Source of the DNA: a virus
IMG/VR virus record: IMGVR_UViG_3300039307_000389
Coordinates: 1-59,809 of that record
DNA: 59,809 nucleotides
Strand: one strand, 5' to 3'
Of this stretch, positions 1-48,698 are shown one piece after another. Made by a program: the position numbers and the translations under genes. The notes under the pieces are model-generated. The model did no database searches, was not told where the DNA came from, and saw only the letters and a program-made list of their open reading frames with translations. Within the stretch, counting starts at the first letter, position 1. Each line of letters starts with the position of its first letter.

Positions 1-1233
1 TTATTGCACCTGTCCCTTGTGTTGCGGTTCGATGGCGGCCGTTGCCCGGCTCTGCCTCTGGTATTCTTCCCACTTCCGCACCGCTTCATCGTCTTGGCCG
101 TGTATCGCATGGGCGTAAACGTCCGCGGTCACACGCACCGAAGAATGGCCCAACCGTGCGGATACCGCCGGCAGGGGAACCCCTTGTGCGAGCATGTGCG
201 ATCCGTGGCTGTGGCGGAGAAGGTGTAGCGCGGCGCCCTTCGGCTTGGCGATCTTCAAGCGCTTGAACAGGGCGGAAACCGTTGCGGAAACGGAATCCGG
301 TCGCAAGGGCGTTCCGTCCGTGTTCGCAAAGATAAGGTCCAGATCGGCCCGGTAGTCGCTGCCGAACTTTGCCCTGAACTCGCCCTGCGCCTTCCGGTGA
401 ACTTCGAGCGCCGCCAGGGCCTCCTCTGGCAATCCAAGCACCCGGATTTCTTCCGTCTTCGTGCTCTTGAACTCCAGGCCGCCCTTCGTTTGGCAGAGAG
501 AACGCCCGATCACGGCCCGGCCGTCTTCCACATCCGACCATCGCAACGCCAGCACCTCGCCGCGGCGCGCCCCGAGCGCGGCATCCATCGCCAAGAACGT
601 CGAGAGACACCATGGACCGCTCGCCGCCTCGATTAGAAGATCCTGCTGGGCAGTCGTCAGGGCGATTCCCCGCCGCTTCTTCGGAATCGGCGGCTCGCTC
701 GCGGTTACCGGATTCACAAGCACCAATCCCCACTTAACCGCGCGGCCGAAAGCGGAGGAAACCACACCCGCGATATTCCGCACCGTCTTAGCACTCATCG
801 GCCGTGGAGCCTTTTTACGTGAGTGTCCGCCCGAGGTAAGGAGCCGCTTCCATTCTCGGTTAAGGTGTAACGGCGTGATTTGGTCCAGCCGCATCGCCAC
901 CAGCTCGGGAGCCAGGTACGTCGCGCACTCCCTATAGCGCTCGATGGTCTTTGGCGCAAGGTTCTCTTCGGCGTGTTGCTTGAAGAACTCCACAAGTAGC
1001 GTAGCCAGCGTCTTGGGAATTTCCTCCGCAACCTTCACCCCGCCGGCCAGTTCCAGTTCGTACTTCTTTTGCTCATCGGTACGGCGCGCGGCTTCGGCGT
1101 CCTGCGCAGCTTTCTTTGTGGCGAATCCAGACGCCGTGCATTGCCTCCGGTCCTCTCGGGTAGCTCCGGGGCCTGAGAAAAGGTAAGACCATACCTCCTC
1201 TCCCGACTTGTACACGCGCTTATAGACCGGCAT
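1..1233 (-). CDS. int: Tyrosine-type site-specific integrase
   Basis: Catalyses integration and excision of the phage genome by strand exchange at att sites. The 410-residue protein has the full tyrosine recombinase layout: an N-terminal arm-binding region (1-70), a SAM-like core-binding domain (about 75-180) and the catalytic domain (190-395). Visible active-site residues are R223 in GARRGE, a beta-hairpin lysine near K259, H337 and R340 in HLLRH, H363 in LGHSS and the nucleophile Y373 in DVYAH. An upstream in-frame extension of 27 residues is possible, but MPVYKR is the usual start of this family and overlaps the preceding small gene by 14 bases. The stop codon is the first three bases of the window, so attP may lie just outside. 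It is the last gene of the leftward early operon. Confidence 0.95.
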   Translation of the reverse strand: MPVYKRVYKSGEEVWSYLFSGPGATREDRRQCTASGFATKKAAQDAEAARRTDEQKKYELELAGGVKVAEEIPKTLATLLVEFFKQHAEENLAPKTIERYRECATYLAPELVAMRLDQITPLHLNREWKRLLTSGGHSRKKAPRPMSAKTVRNIAGVVSSAFGRAVKWGLVLVNPVTASEPPIPKKRRGIALTTAQQDLLIEAASGPWCLSTFLAMDAALGARRGEVLALRWSDVEDGRAVIGRSLCQTKGGLEFKSTKTEEIRVLGLPEEALAALEVHRKAQGEFRAKFGSDYRADLDLIFANTDGTPLRPDSVSATVSALFKRLKIAKPKGAALHLLRHSHGSHMLAQGVPLPAVSARLGHSSVRVTADVYAHAIHGQDDEAVRKWEEYQRQSRATAAIEPQHKGQVQ

Positions 1234-1378
1234 CTTTCGTCTCTGTCTTACACGAGGTCCCATCCGCATGGATAGCCAGCCGGGCCAGCGATAGCGAGGC
1301 GCACGGGGCGCCACATCGCCGGCAGGGCGTAGGCTTCGCGGTTCGTCCGCCGCGTTTATGCTTGCGAGCGTCGGCCAT
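1220..1378 (-). CDS. Small basic CxxC protein upstream of integrase
   Basis: A 52-residue protein of unknown function. The first part is strongly basic (ADARKHKRGGRTAK) and is followed by a zinc-knuckle-like CRRCGAPC. The ATG is preceded by a GGAGG eight bases upstream, better than the TTG start 21 codons earlier. It overlaps the integrase start by 14 bases, so the two are probably translated together. A DNA-binding role in integration control is possible but is only inferred from charge and position. Confidence 0.6.
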   Translation of the reverse strand: MADARKHKRGGRTAKPTPCRRCGAPCASLSLARLAIHADGTSCKTETKDAGL

Positions 1379-12045: not shown

Positions 12046-12714
12046 TTAGTTACCGGCCTGGATTTCCGCGCAGATGGCGTCGTATTTCTCGCGCGTGATC
12101 TGTTCCGTTCGCTCGAAGCCGTGCTTGGCGATGATCGCCTTGACGCCTGCCTGCGACCTACCGGCGCCGTGCATCAGCGCGAAGATCCGCTTTTGCTGGG
12201 CTTCGTTGATGCATCCTGGAAGAGTCTCGGCCGGCGGGTGCGTGGCGCGCGGTCCCCTCCGCGCAGGGGGTTTGTCGCTTTGTCCCGGCTCGCGCCCCTC
12301 AGCCCCCTCGCCGTCGTCATCCTCCGCGGCGACACCCACCATAGATTCGAGTGCGTACCGGCGCGCATATTTGACGGTCGATCCGATTGCCTGGGGGTTG
12401 TCGATGGTTTCCCAGCCTCCGCCGTCCTTCAGTTGGCGCTTGGAGGTCATGGTGAGGTCGCTCGATATCCACTGGCCGCTGGAATGAACCAGGATCGTGG
12501 TTACCGTGACCTTCGCGCCTTCAACCGCCACCGGCTGAATCACCGCGAGCCCGTTCGCGCTGAGAGGTTTCCGGATGGCCGCCCAAACGGAAGCCAGGTC
12601 CGCATAGTTCGAATGGAAGTAGGGGTTTTCGCTATCCTTCGCGGCTGCCTCCATTTCCCCTTGCGCCTTCGCAAGCGCCGCGGAAAGCGCGTCGATCTGT
12701 TCGCTTCTGTTCAT
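12046..12714 (-). CDS. erf: ERF family single-strand annealing protein
   Basis: 222 residues. The N-terminal ERF core is clear: NPYFHSNYADLASVWAAI, PLSANGLAVIQP, and further on GSTVKYARRYALESMVGVA. Such proteins anneal complementary single strands during phage recombination and genome circularisation. A proline-rich acidic linker (residues 130-165) leads to a small C-terminal helical domain (NEAQQKRIFALM, GVKAIIAKHGF), similar to domains added to other phage annealing proteins. It is paired with the PD-(D/E)XK nuclease immediately upstream, which would supply the resected ends. Confidence 0.9.
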   Translation of the reverse strand: MNRSEQIDALSAALAKAQGEMEAAAKDSENPYFHSNYADLASVWAAIRKPLSANGLAVIQPVAVEGAKVTVTTILVHSSGQWISSDLTMTSKRQLKDGGGWETIDNPQAIGSTVKYARRYALESMVGVAAEDDDGEGAEGREPGQSDKPPARRGPRATHPPAETLPGCINEAQQKRIFALMHGAGRSQAGVKAIIAKHGFERTEQITREKYDAICAEIQAGN

Positions 12715-12717
12715 CGG

Positions 12718-13356
12718 CTATACCCTTTTCTTGAGCCGCGCATCCAGCTCGTATGCTTTCCGCAAGAGCAGGAACTCGGTCAGTTCGTCTTTGAGAGACA
12801 CAAACGAGTAGTGAGCGAAGTCGCCCTCCAGTTTGGAGAACCGTACCAGGTCATATCCCCTGACCGGGTTGTCCGGGAAGTTCTCATTCCATAGCGCGCC
12901 GTAGGCGGCCAACTGCATTAGGTAGTCGCTGTACACGCTGTTGGAAGTCTTCCAATCCAACAGGTGCAGATCGTCGCCAAGCGTCACCGCGTCGAGGGTT
13001 CCACCGAATCGGAACCGCTTCGACATGAGGCCGATTTCGGTTTTCGCCGGCTTGAGGTGGCTCTGTTCCGCCCACCTCCGGAATGCTCCGAATGAGTTCT
13101 CGGCGACAGTCAGAATCTCCAGCGGATAGGGCTCGGGGTTGAACTCCCGGCCGCGGATGAAACACTCCACCATGTCGTGTGCGCAAGTGCCGGCATCGGC
13201 CGCCGCCTGCTTCACGTCGCGGTAGTCTTTCCCTTCCGTGCCCAGAGTCCAAGCCCAATGGATCAGGCCGCCCGACTCCTTGAAGCGCGATAGGACCGTT
13301 GTCACGGACGGTAGCCGCTTGCCATCGAGCCAGTAACCCTTGCGTGGAGTCGGCAT
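12718..13356 (-). CDS. PD-(D/E)XK exonuclease partner of ERF
   Basis: A 212-residue RecB/Cas4-like nuclease. Conserved pieces are LPSVTTVLSRF near the start, GTLDAV (the metal-binding aspartate), LLDWKTSN (the D/E-x-K pair) and DYLMQLAAYG (helix after the active site). It probably resects dsDNA ends to make substrate for ERF. It lies three bases upstream of erf, and downstream of the 59-codon gene with which it is contiguous. Confidence 0.85.
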   Translation of the reverse strand: MPTPRKGYWLDGKRLPSVTTVLSRFKESGGLIHWAWTLGTEGKDYRDVKQAAADAGTCAHDMVECFIRGREFNPEPYPLEILTVAENSFGAFRRWAEQSHLKPAKTEIGLMSKRFRFGGTLDAVTLGDDLHLLDWKTSNSVYSDYLMQLAAYGALWNENFPDNPVRGYDLVRFSKLEGDFAHYSFVSLKDELTEFLLLRKAYELDARLKKRV

Positions 13357-13571: not shown

Positions 13572-13769
13572 CTATTTACTGCTGGCGGTGGTCCTGAACA
13601 ACAGCCCGGTTAACAGGTTCATGGCGAGCGCCTGGCCAAAGGTGATCGTTTTGAGGCCAAACAACGTTGGCATCAGATAATCCCAAAGCCACATCGTCGG
13701 CAGAGCCAGCACTAACGCCAGCACGGCCACTATGACGAGCGCGAAAAACAACACACCGAGAGCTTTCAT
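13572..13769 (-). CDS. Small two-helix membrane protein
   Basis: Sixty-five residues with two hydrophobic segments. The first (GVLFFALVIVAVLALVLAL) is a membrane helix; it is followed by PTMWLWDYLMPTLFGLKTIT and a second helix. The LW-x-x-LMPxxFGL pattern recurs in small phage and plasmid membrane proteins of unknown function. ATG at 13769 is nine bases after GGAGG, better than a GTG two codons upstream. It follows the tmRNA gene on the same strand. Confidence 0.7.
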   Translation of the reverse strand: MKALGVLFFALVIVAVLALVLALPTMWLWDYLMPTLFGLKTITFGQALAMNLLTGLLFRTTASSK

Positions 13770-13790
13770 TCGCACAATCCTCCGTAAGTT

Positions 13791-14165
13791 GCCGCGCTTG
13801 ATTTACCGAGCGCGCGGCATACTCGGGTCACTGACTAGGCAGCCAGCGGCAAAGCGTTCTCGTAAGAGTTGGCTTTTATGGTTTGCGCCTTCAGGGTCGG
13901 TCGCCTGCCCATCGCCTCCCGCGCACTCGCTACATCCCGTCGAAACCAGTCACCCCCGTATGGAGCCGGACCCGCCGCATCACTGCCAAGTGATCGACGG
14001 GCTACCCGGCATAAGTTGGTGGAGGTGGGGAGAATCGAACTCCCGTCCGCAATGTGTCTGCGCGCGATCAACAGCAATCTCTTTGTCGCCTTCGGTTGAT
14101 CCGCGTGGCTCCGGTGGGAGCTTGGCGCATCCCGGTTATCCGAGATGCGTTTGGCGGGTACGATA
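13791..14165 (-). ncRNA. ssrA: Transfer-messenger RNA, circularly permuted gene
   Basis: Ribosome-rescue RNA. The tRNA-like 3' end, GGACGGGAGTTCGATTCTCC then CACCTCCACCA, occupies about 14050-14017. Fifty-nine bases further along the transcript comes the canonical tmRNA 5' end GGGGGTGACTGGTTTCGACG (from 13957), and then the tag reading frame (13873-13835) coding ANSYENALPLAA and a TAG stop. The 3' half thus precedes the 5' half: a permuted gene whose transcript would be cut into two pieces. The acceptor strands pair as GGGGGUG with CACCUCC and place a G-U at pair 3, the alanine identity element. Further support: GUGCGCG/CGCGCGC pairing for helix P2 and a perfect H-type pseudoknot after the tag (13826-13791; CCGAG/CTCGG and GCCGCGC/GCGCGGC). 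The outer 5' boundary near 14165 is approximate. No smpB is visible here. Confidence 0.9.
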
Positions 14166-14250
14166 GCGCCGGTCTTGGGGCACAACGGAGCAGTGCTCAG
14201 AAGAAACGGAGCCACGCGGGCAACCTTGCCGGCGTATCCAGAACCTTGTT

Positions 14251-14532
14251 TCATTCGCAAATGCCCTCGAAAAGAGGGGCGGATGGCACGCTGGCCACCC
14301 GCCCGCAAGGAGAAGGGAACGGACCCTCAACCGCAACGAGCGCATCCCATACCGTGCCCGCGACTCCCTCACGCCAGCGGCGGGCTACACACACTCGCCA
14401 GCGGATGCCGCACGCGCGGTCAATCTTGATCTCTACGCGATATCCCCCAACGGAGCCGGACCACTTACCATCCGGGTCCGCATGGACCGCTCGGATGATT
14501 CGGCTGCGCTTTGCGGGGGACACTTCAGGCAC
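14251..14532 (-). CDS. Unknown small protein upstream of ssrA
   Basis: Up to 93 residues from a GTG that overlaps the preceding gene by eight bases. The N-terminal half (SRIIRAVHADPDGKWSGSVG, YRVEIKIDRACG) looks like a small beta sheet; the tail is proline-rich. No family recognised and the Shine-Dalgarno is weak, so the call rests mostly on packing. Confidence 0.45.
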   Translation of the reverse strand: MPEVSPAKRSRIIRAVHADPDGKWSGSVGGYRVEIKIDRACGIRWRVCVARRWREGVAGTVWDALVAVEGPFPSPCGRVASVPSAPLFEGICE

Positions 14533-14839
14533 GGCTTTCGCGCTCCAGAATGCCCATGTTTCCGCCGCATACGGAGATCGGGAGCAATCGCCATCCCCGC
14601 TCTCCCCAGGCGTTCAGCTTCTGCTCCACGGCCGCGTGCCCGTCCGTCGAGTTGAGAGAGATGAAGTGATACGAATAGCGCGGTTCCAACCGGACCACGT
14701 GTCCAGGCTCCGGGTCCGGCGGTATCGCCGCGGCGACACTCGCGCAGGACGCGCACAGAATCCGCTTCGGCTTCCCGAGCGGCTGGAAGGCCTTCGCCGT
14801 CATCGGCGAGAGGGGTACCGCGCATTTCTCGCACTTCAT
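14525..14839 (-). CDS. Zinc-ribbon protein with DUF4177-like domain
   Basis: 104 residues. The start MKCEKCAVPLSP and a later CASCASV supply a four-cysteine zinc site. The second half, YSYHFISLNSTDG then VEQKLNAWGERGWRLLP, matches the DUF4177 pattern (a short domain with an invariant LNxxGxxGW). These domains are common in small phage and bacterial proteins of unknown role. The start was chosen at MKCEKC because the upstream in-frame part overlaps the neighbour. Confidence 0.65.
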   Translation of the reverse strand: MKCEKCAVPLSPMTAKAFQPLGKPKRILCASCASVAAAIPPDPEPGHVVRLEPRYSYHFISLNSTDGHAAVEQKLNAWGERGWRLLPISVCGGNMGILERESRA

Positions 14840-14843
14840 GTCG

Positions 14844-15170
14844 CTAAAGAGAGGCACGGCAGAGCACCTCCATCTGTGCGGCAAAGGCGCCGAACGAAGA
14901 CTGAACGGTAGGAGTCCGTGGGGCGTAATAGTCCGGGTCCACGAACCGCTGAAAGACCCGCTCCCACTTTGCGTCTTCGGCGAGCGCTACCTCGCGCGAC
15001 GGCCGTCCGGCTCGGGATGTATCGTGGTGGGTGTGCTGGCAATCCGAAGAGCAGAACTTGGGAGCGTTTTCTCCCTTGCTCAATGCCTTCTGGAACTGCG
15101 CTCCGCATCCCTGACACAAGAACGTCCGGTCTTCACCGCATTCCTGTGTACCTTTAGTACTCGTATCCAC
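14844..15170 (-). CDS. Zinc-finger protein, first gene of leftward early operon
   Basis: 108 residues. FLCQGCGAQF...FCSSDCQHTHH is a treble-clef or zinc-ribbon finger of the kind in small phage regulators. The GTG at 15170 has GGAGG six bases upstream, better than the GTG eight codons earlier. It faces the plus-strand regulator across the 15.2-15.5 kb control region, so it is probably the first gene expressed leftwards. Function unknown, possibly DNA binding. Confidence 0.65.
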   Translation of the reverse strand: MDTSTKGTQECGEDRTFLCQGCGAQFQKALSKGENAPKFCSSDCQHTHHDTSRAGRPSREVALAEDAKWERVFQRFVDPDYYAPRTPTVQSSFGAFAAQMEVLCRASL

Positions 15171-15368
15171 GCAGCCCTCCTGTTGGAGTTGCACGAAAAA
15201 CGTTGACTTGGTTTTCAGGTGGGTTTAGGATGGAAGTGTTAACCGGCCATCCGGCCCCCACAAAGGGCTAGGGGCTTTCAACCGAGGGGCGGTTCCAACG
15301 CCGCCCCCGGTTCCCACCTTCCACTGGGCATCTCCGGCCCAGGTCCCGCGAAATCCTTTTCGGATCTC

Positions 15369-47420: not shown

Positions 47421-48698
47421 TTAGCTCTCGTAATCGCCCGCCTCGAACTTTTCCTGCCCTTTATCGGCGGCTGCCAAGAATCCGAAGTGGCCGCCCTCCG
47501 GGTTAATCATCTGCCACGCACCCGGCCCGAACCGCTCTTCAAGTTCCCGTAGTTCTCTCCACACATCCGGGAAGGTCGCCCGAATCGCGGCGTAGGCCTG
47601 CGGCTTTTGGCCCGGACAAATCCTACAGGCGGTACGGCACAGCCCGCGCGAATACCCGTCCCACGCTGGAAGGCCCGCTTCTTCGAGGAGCTTACCGCTC
47701 GTTTCCTTATCGCTGAAGTAGAGCGGCTGGAAGTACTTGTATTTCTCCATCCGCTCGACTACCAGAAACCGGCTCTCGTTTCGCTTTCCGGAAGCCGCGC
47801 GCTCCGAGAGTCTGCCACCGCGCAGGATCGCGATTTCATCCGCGCCGTGCGTGAGCATGTAATCGTCCAACGGCTGGTGCAGATTGTCGTGGCAGTACGG
47901 ATGTCCGAAGTGCGGCCATTGGCCCTTTTCGAGCATCGTGTCCAGAACGGTGCGCTTCGAGCGCAAGACCACCAGCGGTACGCCGAGGAACCGCGCCGCA
48001 TCGTGCAGGTACAGGTGGAATCCGACGTAATCGGCGCCGAGGTCCACGAACAATAGCTCGGTCGGGTTGTCGGGGAAATAGTGCCGCGCCCAGACGGCCG
48101 CCGCGCTCGAATCCTTGCCGCCGGAATACTCTACCAGTAGTTTGCGGCCCGCCAAGATCGCGCGCTCTTCTTCGGTGGGTTCTAGGTCACCCACGCAACC
48201 GCCCTTGATGGTGTCGGGCTTGAACGTCTCGCCTGCGGGTTCTTCCGCGCCGCCGGACCCGTCCGTGAGATCGGCCAGCAGGGAATCGAGGGACGGCCCG
48301 AGGTCTTGCCCGATTTCGCTGGTTCGCAATTCGGCCAGCAGGGAGTTCAACTTCTTTTCGTCTTTCTCCGCCTGGGCCGATATCGGGTCCATCGTCGCTA
48401 GGACCAGCGCCTCTTCCTCTTCGGTGAGGTCAACGTACAGAACCGGAACCGACTCGCCGGCCGCCTTCGCCATCTCCACGCGAAGATGCCCGTCTACCAG
48501 AAACCCCGTCCGCTGGTTCACTACGACGTTTTGGACCCATCCCACCTTATCGAGCACGCCGCCGAGCGCTTCGCGCTGCGCCGGCGGGTGCAGCCGCCAG
48601 TTCTTCGGGTTGGCGAGGAGCGTAGCGGCATCCTCGACGCCAGAGCCGACGATTCGGCTGCGCCAAGCTACCGAGCTGGTTTTGCGACCTTTTGGCAT
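47421..48698 (-). CDS. ParB/Srx domain fused to PAPS-reductase-like PP-loop enzyme
   Basis: 425 residues. The N-terminus (LANPKNWRLHPPAQREAL, VDGHLRVEMAKAAG, LYVDLTEEEEALVLATMD) is a ParB-like nuclease or DNA-binding domain; after a linker at 140-180 comes a PP-loop ATPase with EYSGGKDSSAAAVWA (SGGxDS), and a cysteine set CRTACRICPG that could hold an iron-sulfur cluster. The two halves resemble IbrB and IbrA and the DndC-like sulfur enzymes. It may modify DNA or RNA with sulfur or act as a regulator. The promoter region carries repeats. Confidence 0.8.
   Translation of the reverse strand: MPKGRKTSSVAWRSRIVGSGVEDAATLLANPKNWRLHPPAQREALGGVLDKVGWVQNVVVNQRTGFLVDGHLRVEMAKAAGESVPVLYVDLTEEEEALVLATMDPISAQAEKDEKKLNSLLAELRTSEIGQDLGPSLDSLLADLTDGSGGAEEPAGETFKPDTIKGGCVGDLEPTEEERAILAGRKLLVEYSGGKDSSAAAVWARHYFPDNPTELLFVDLGADYVGFHLYLHDAARFLGVPLVVLRSKRTVLDTMLEKGQWPHFGHPYCHDNLHQPLDDYMLTHGADEIAILRGGRLSERAASGKRNESRFLVVERMEKYKYFQPLYFSDKETSGKLLEEAGLPAWDGYSRGLCRTACRICPGQKPQAYAAIRATFPDVWRELRELEERFGPGAWQMINPEGGHFGFLAAADKGQEKFEAGDYES

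Follow-up and report, generated by a model that had tools for sequence, protein, structure and literature searches.

A circularly permuted tmRNA gene in an uncultured temperate phage and its homologues in two related phages

Permuted and phage-borne tmRNAs described previously

In established tmRNA biology the molecule is charged by alanyl-tRNA synthetase via the G3-U70 pair, uses SmpB and tags proteins on stalled ribosomes. The tmRNAs of the mycobacteriophages Bxz1 and Wildcat and of the Bacillus phage G have the standard one-piece gene order. Like the locus described here these are phage-carried genes, as is that of DS6A, which was included in an earlier survey of phage ssrA genes (PMC4131195) and which, unlike the present gene with its tag and pseudoknot, is tag-less. 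A two-piece tmRNA was described by Buchholz et al. in 2022 in the Methylophilales phage Melnitz, together with a survey in which tmRNA was detected in 402 of 18,146 phage genomes, 133 structures were unique and 53 phage structures were suggested to be two-piece, 50 of these 53 coming from marine or aquatic phages (PMC9004378). The 2025 tmRNA database contains 79 phage sequences and introduced the Rfam family RF04321 (PMC11915505).

The phage-borne two-piece tmRNA is, accordingly, already known, and the statement of the initial annotation that phage tmRNAs are otherwise one-piece was wrong, given the 2022 publication (PMC9004378) and the 106 IMG/VR stretches retrieved here with one pattern. The rest of that interpretation, namely the permuted gene, the G3-U70 pair, the pseudoknot, the setting among recombination genes and the cargo status, stood. 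What is new here is a divergent three-member group with the tag end ALP[LM]AA, with no SmpB found, and with phage and beta-type tmRNAs as its apparent nearest relatives, which extends the phage-borne two-piece tmRNA to temperate phages with lambda-type packaging genes.

The sequence analysed, hereafter the window, is the full 59,809-nt stretch of the record IMGVR_UViG_3300039307_000389, and its tmRNA was examined on the minus strand. The window shares with Melnitz a phage-encoded circularly permuted ssrA in which the tag and the tRNA-like domain are both complete. In Melnitz, a myophage of 141 kb with no integrase found, the alpha-type (SAR11-like) gene is linked to a glutamine riboswitch, whereas the window belongs to a temperate phage with a lambda-type terminase, its tmRNA appears closest to phage and beta-type genes, and its tag has the ALP[LM]AA end. 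No riboswitch was detected at threshold in the window with cmscan against Rfam. The betaproteobacterial family RF01850 is similar in gene order, in the acceptor strands GGGGGUG/CACCUCC and in the AGGCGAC hairpin loop, and with lax thresholds it is matched over its full length at 13785-14108, although the score of 65.8 bits is below the gathering score of 84 and far from the 251.5 bits of a sampled host member, and the type tag of the family, ANDERFALAA, is unlike that of the window.

The tmRNA gene and its phage

The circularly permuted tmRNA is encoded at 13790-14078 on the minus strand. It is the single gene called by ARAGORN in the window (c[13744,14109], tag ANSYENALPLAA), and the Rfam model RF04321 (tmRNA_permuted) was matched by cmscan at 13835-14078(-) with 104.5 bits and an E-value of 2.5e-19, all model positions from 1 to 213 being matched. 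The two closest homologues, L058 (IMGVR_UViG_3300035696_003054) and L108 (IMGVR_UViG_3300048599_000861), scored 101.0 and 109.7 bits, and all three loci lie above the gathering score of 47 bits. Read on the DNA, the 3' tRNA piece with its CCA is located upstream of the 5' piece. The initial annotation had placed a permuted tmRNA on this strand, with a covariance-model search as its check, and both programs bore this out. The 3' CCA ending at 14017, the 59-nt spacer (14016-13958), G1 at 13957 and the G3-U70 alanine pair, which sits in an acceptor stem with 7 of 7 pairs, were also confirmed, as was the pseudoknot that it placed after the tag. The presence of a real and well-preserved permuted tmRNA gene in an uncultured temperate phage is confirmed, and chance is excluded because the two phage homologues show compensatory changes.

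The acceptor (3') piece, delimited by the RF04321 alignment and pair counts, occupies 14017..14078 (the features given with coordinates in this section are on the minus strand unless stated otherwise) and contains the 3' strands of P2, the T-arm (14044-14028), the acceptor 3' strand (14027-14021), the discriminator A and the encoded CCA (14019-14017). The intervening segment at 13958..14016 folds into a single hairpin (-30.8 kcal/mol) which is expected to be cut out during processing. The coding (5') piece, taken as far as the stop of the tag and defined by ARAGORN, RF04321 and pair counts, occupies 13835..13957 and includes the acceptor 5' strand GGGGGUG (13957-13951), the P2 5' strands (13939-13911), the resume region and, at 13835..13873, the ARAGORN-called tag reading frame ANSYENALPLAA followed by a TAG stop, a frame which is kept in L058 and L108. 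On the 3' side of the tag there is an H-type pseudoknot at 13790..13826, with stem 1 formed by 13826-13821 and 13811-13806 and stem 2 by 13819-13812 and 13797-13790.

A long helix is predicted upstream of the acceptor piece at 14087..14234 (arms 14234-14207 and 14113-14087), the leader region 14079-14280 folding at -82.3 kcal/mol with a z-score of -3.8. Such a helix also folds upstream of the L058 tmRNA (z-score of -1.6) and none is clear in L108, so that it is strong in the window and not clearly common to the relatives, and it is not taken as a conserved element. Lying directly upstream of the acceptor piece, it is a possible processing site. A terminator-like hairpin located further upstream of the tmRNA at 14277-14304 could make the tmRNA its own transcription unit.

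The window carries a tyrosine integrase gene at its first base (1..1314, phrog_1, E-value of 1.1e-64), about 12.5 kb from the tmRNA, as well as genes for a DnaB-like helicase, an Erf-like annealing protein, an exonuclease, a lambda-type terminase, a portal protein and a fused protease-capsid protein. Its two ends coincide exactly with the stop of the integrase gene and with the start of another gene, respectively, boundaries which resemble those of a trimmed provirus. The tmRNA is located just upstream of the exonuclease (12718-13356) and Erf (12046-12714) genes in the same orientation, and these PHROGs assignments support the setting among phage recombination genes that had been read from the sequence initially. 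A small membrane-protein ORF (13572..13775, phrog_705/phrog_2169) lies directly downstream of the tmRNA and an ORF for an HNH endonuclease-like protein (14844..15194, phrog_1271, E-value of 1.9e-6) lies upstream. Matches to isolated phages are distant, the best being about 31% for the exonuclease and about 45% for the terminase. At 47421-48698 (strand aside) there is a CDS whose product combines a ParB-like N-terminal half with a C-terminal half resembling phosphoadenosine phosphosulfate reductase.

Homologues, covariation and the degradation tag

The general permuted-tmRNA pattern recovered 106 IMG/VR stretches, and 105 of the 107 loci, the window included, were called as tmRNA by ARAGORN, nearly all of them listed as permuted with AND-type tags. 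The fine features of the window gene are common to only two of the pattern-found stretches, L058 and L108. The phages are related but mosaic: between the window and the L108 phage (G002) the identity is 63% for the capsid protein, 63% for the portal protein and 74% for a radical SAM protein, the window shares a large tail-region protein with G001 at 70%, and the integrases of G001 and G002 are 79% identical, most relatives being represented by less than a complete phage genome. The radical SAM protein is encoded at 1975-2808 of the window. In both relatives a phage sigma factor gene is located upstream of the tmRNA, at 14709-15335 in the L058 phage (L112), where its product contains Sigma70_r2 and r4 domains (Pfam), and at 2968-4029 in L108.

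In a three-way alignment of the window, L058 and L108, 30 pairs of the acceptor stem, T-arm and P2 were examined, which gives 90 cells, and 97.8% of these are formed. Two-sided changes occur in five pairs, located in the T-arm, P2 and the acceptor stem, and include a pair bridging the two pieces (U6-A67 to C6-G67). When the partners were slid by 1-3 columns only 36-59% were paired (maximum 58.9%), a control limited by the number of sequences, which is three. The acceptor stem has 7 of 7 pairs in all three phages with one compensatory change, and G3-U70 is invariant. Of the P2 pairs, L058 has lost one and L108 another. The pseudoknot forms in all three phages from unrelated sequences, with equally good structures in 2 of 300 dinucleotide shuffles for the window, 7 of 300 for L058 and 2 of 300 for L108. 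The 56-nt spacers of L058 and L108, which are of other sequence, also fold as one hairpin each (-33.2 and -26.2 kcal/mol, respectively).

The tags are ANSYENALPLAA in the window, ANQPMALPMAA in L058 and ANNTVALPMAA in L108, each followed by a stop; for L058 the ARAGORN call extends upstream and the homologous start was taken from the alignment. Their lengths of 12, 11 and 11 aa differ by one whole codon, with no frame shift. All three end in ALP[LM]AA, retaining the final AA, and lack the AND start of most tags in this comparison; the proline fourth from the end is seen in no other tabulated phage or host tag. With these two peculiarities, host adaptors and proteases could recognise the tag differently. 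That so unusual a tag end is conserved leads to the testable idea that a phage might steer the proteolysis of rescued proteins. A broader proposal, that the three genes constitute a phage-specific tmRNA lineage long apart from host genes, with a tag (AN...ALP[LM]AA) altered such that proteins bearing it avoid their host degradation route or take a different one, is considered unlikely; if true, ribosome rescue would leave the phage in control of what becomes of the tagged proteins.

Origin, putative function and alternative explanations

A tree was built from 134 tRNA-domain sequences; it is biased, since its phage rows come from one pattern and its hosts are the 30 best scorers, and it has unsettled bootstrap values and long branches. 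In this tree the genes of the window, L058 and L108 group together (100/100), their long branch lying among those of other phages, and the 28 alpha-type host genes make up a group of their own with full support. A model of the clade (R1) scores its members at 197-210 bits by construction, the other phages searched at 67 bits or less, a beta-type host gene at 56 bits and four alpha-type host genes at 26-32 bits; of 398 Pseudomonadota genomes, the beta-type host alone gave a hit passing an E-value of 1e-10. The alphaproteobacterial two-piece tmRNA (RF01849) thus has the same permuted architecture but differs in both its placement and its scores. The tree and the clade model therefore argue against the gene having been acquired recently from any of the alpha hosts sampled, and the nearest relatives of the three-member group are, as far as these comparisons indicate, phage and beta-type tmRNAs rather than alpha host ones. 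R1 matches in two Acidobacteriota proved to be 3' ends of ordinary one-piece tmRNAs and give no host source there, and at three clade-motif loci in genome contigs (L109-L111) neither ARAGORN nor Rfam detected a tmRNA at the motif, which was taken as chance. Scans of viral and genome contigs with exact patterns having a two-base D-region spacer returned nothing, and BLAST of the tmRNA against phage and plasmid records returned nothing or short matches mostly to tRNA genes.

Taken together, the order of the pieces in the gene, the covariation and the predicted fold, the uninterrupted tag frame, the phage surroundings and the presence or absence of the gene between close phages suggest, with a probability of roughly 0.8, that a temperate tailed phage here carries a working circularly permuted ssrA as optional cargo, whose RNA would act with host SmpB in ribosome rescue and ANSYENALPLAA tagging. 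A single precursor would be transcribed and the spacer hairpin between CCA and G1 cut out by host tRNA-processing enzymes, leaving two pieces that stay paired with each other in the acceptor stem and in P2. Once charged with alanine by the host alanyl-tRNA synthetase via G3-U70, the RNA would work with host SmpB and EF-Tu, so that ribosomes stalled on broken messages would be rescued, whether in an infected cell or in a lysogen, and the tag ANSYENALPLAA would be added to the proteins on them, presumably to the benefit of the phage. A search with PF01668 found no SmpB gene in the window or in 42 other permuted-tmRNA phage records, many of which are perhaps fragments, and found it in 10 of 14 control genomes; host SmpB would therefore be needed.

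As tmRNA genes are frequent integration sites (PMC11915505) and ssrA fragments have been reported in prophages (PMC9004378), the gene might be a piece of host ssrA gained by integration into, or imprecise excision from, a host tmRNA gene. This explanation is largely refuted: the gene is complete and lies far from the integrase instead of being a partial ssrA at a prophage end, the phage genes cluster together at a distance from the 28 alpha-type host genes sampled, and the group model separates them (by construction on the phage side) from the hosts, which reach 26-56 bits. In the L108 record, moreover, the integrase is followed by tRNA-Pro(TGG) and then by a hydrolase gene whose best plasmid matches, at 48-54%, are from Agrobacterium and Rhizobium, which suggests an alphaproteobacterial host for this phage. 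From this adjacency we infer tRNA-Pro to be the att site of L108; a partner att repeat was searched for and not found, nor did 385 genomes from the class to which the Hoeflea genome belongs yield a relative of the L108 integrase. The cargo status proposed in the initial annotation is further upheld by L119, which is closely related to the L058 phage, the two having many proteins at 75-95% identity. The L119 DNA aligns to the L058 phage (L112) up to 14752 and then again from 16053, only three bases further on in L119, so that a block of 1.3 kb (L112 14753-16052) with the tmRNA, the gene for the sigma factor and small ORFs is absent from L119 (7607-7611); no permuted tmRNA was found in the whole L119 record.

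The same absence, together with the broken P2 pair in L058 and the other one in L108, would also fit a decaying or silent relic without function, but such a relic is made highly improbable by the compensatory changes, which affect the acceptor stem as well as the T-arm and P2, and by a pseudoknot conserved though built from different sequence. It is hardly more probable that the RNA is a decoy tying up host SmpB or blocking host tmRNA: altered host translation could benefit phages, and the DS6A-type molecule inhibits tmRNA, perhaps via SmpB titration (PMC4131195), but it has little beyond the tRNA-like domain, whereas the three divergent phages of the present group all retain the resume region, a tag frame with its stop and the pseudoknot. 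For a functional phage tmRNA, the L058 phage and L119 offer a natural close pair with and without the gene, in which its benefit would be measurable.

Two host genomes, G292 and G205, were found to have two permuted tmRNA genes each with different tags (ANDNYAPVAQAA and ANDNVALNEVRLAA), the loci being L154 (9257-9659) with L157 and L155 (9237-9626) with L156. The second tmRNA in these genomes is located 1-2 kb from tRNA-Gly(CCC) and is possibly carried on an integrated element.
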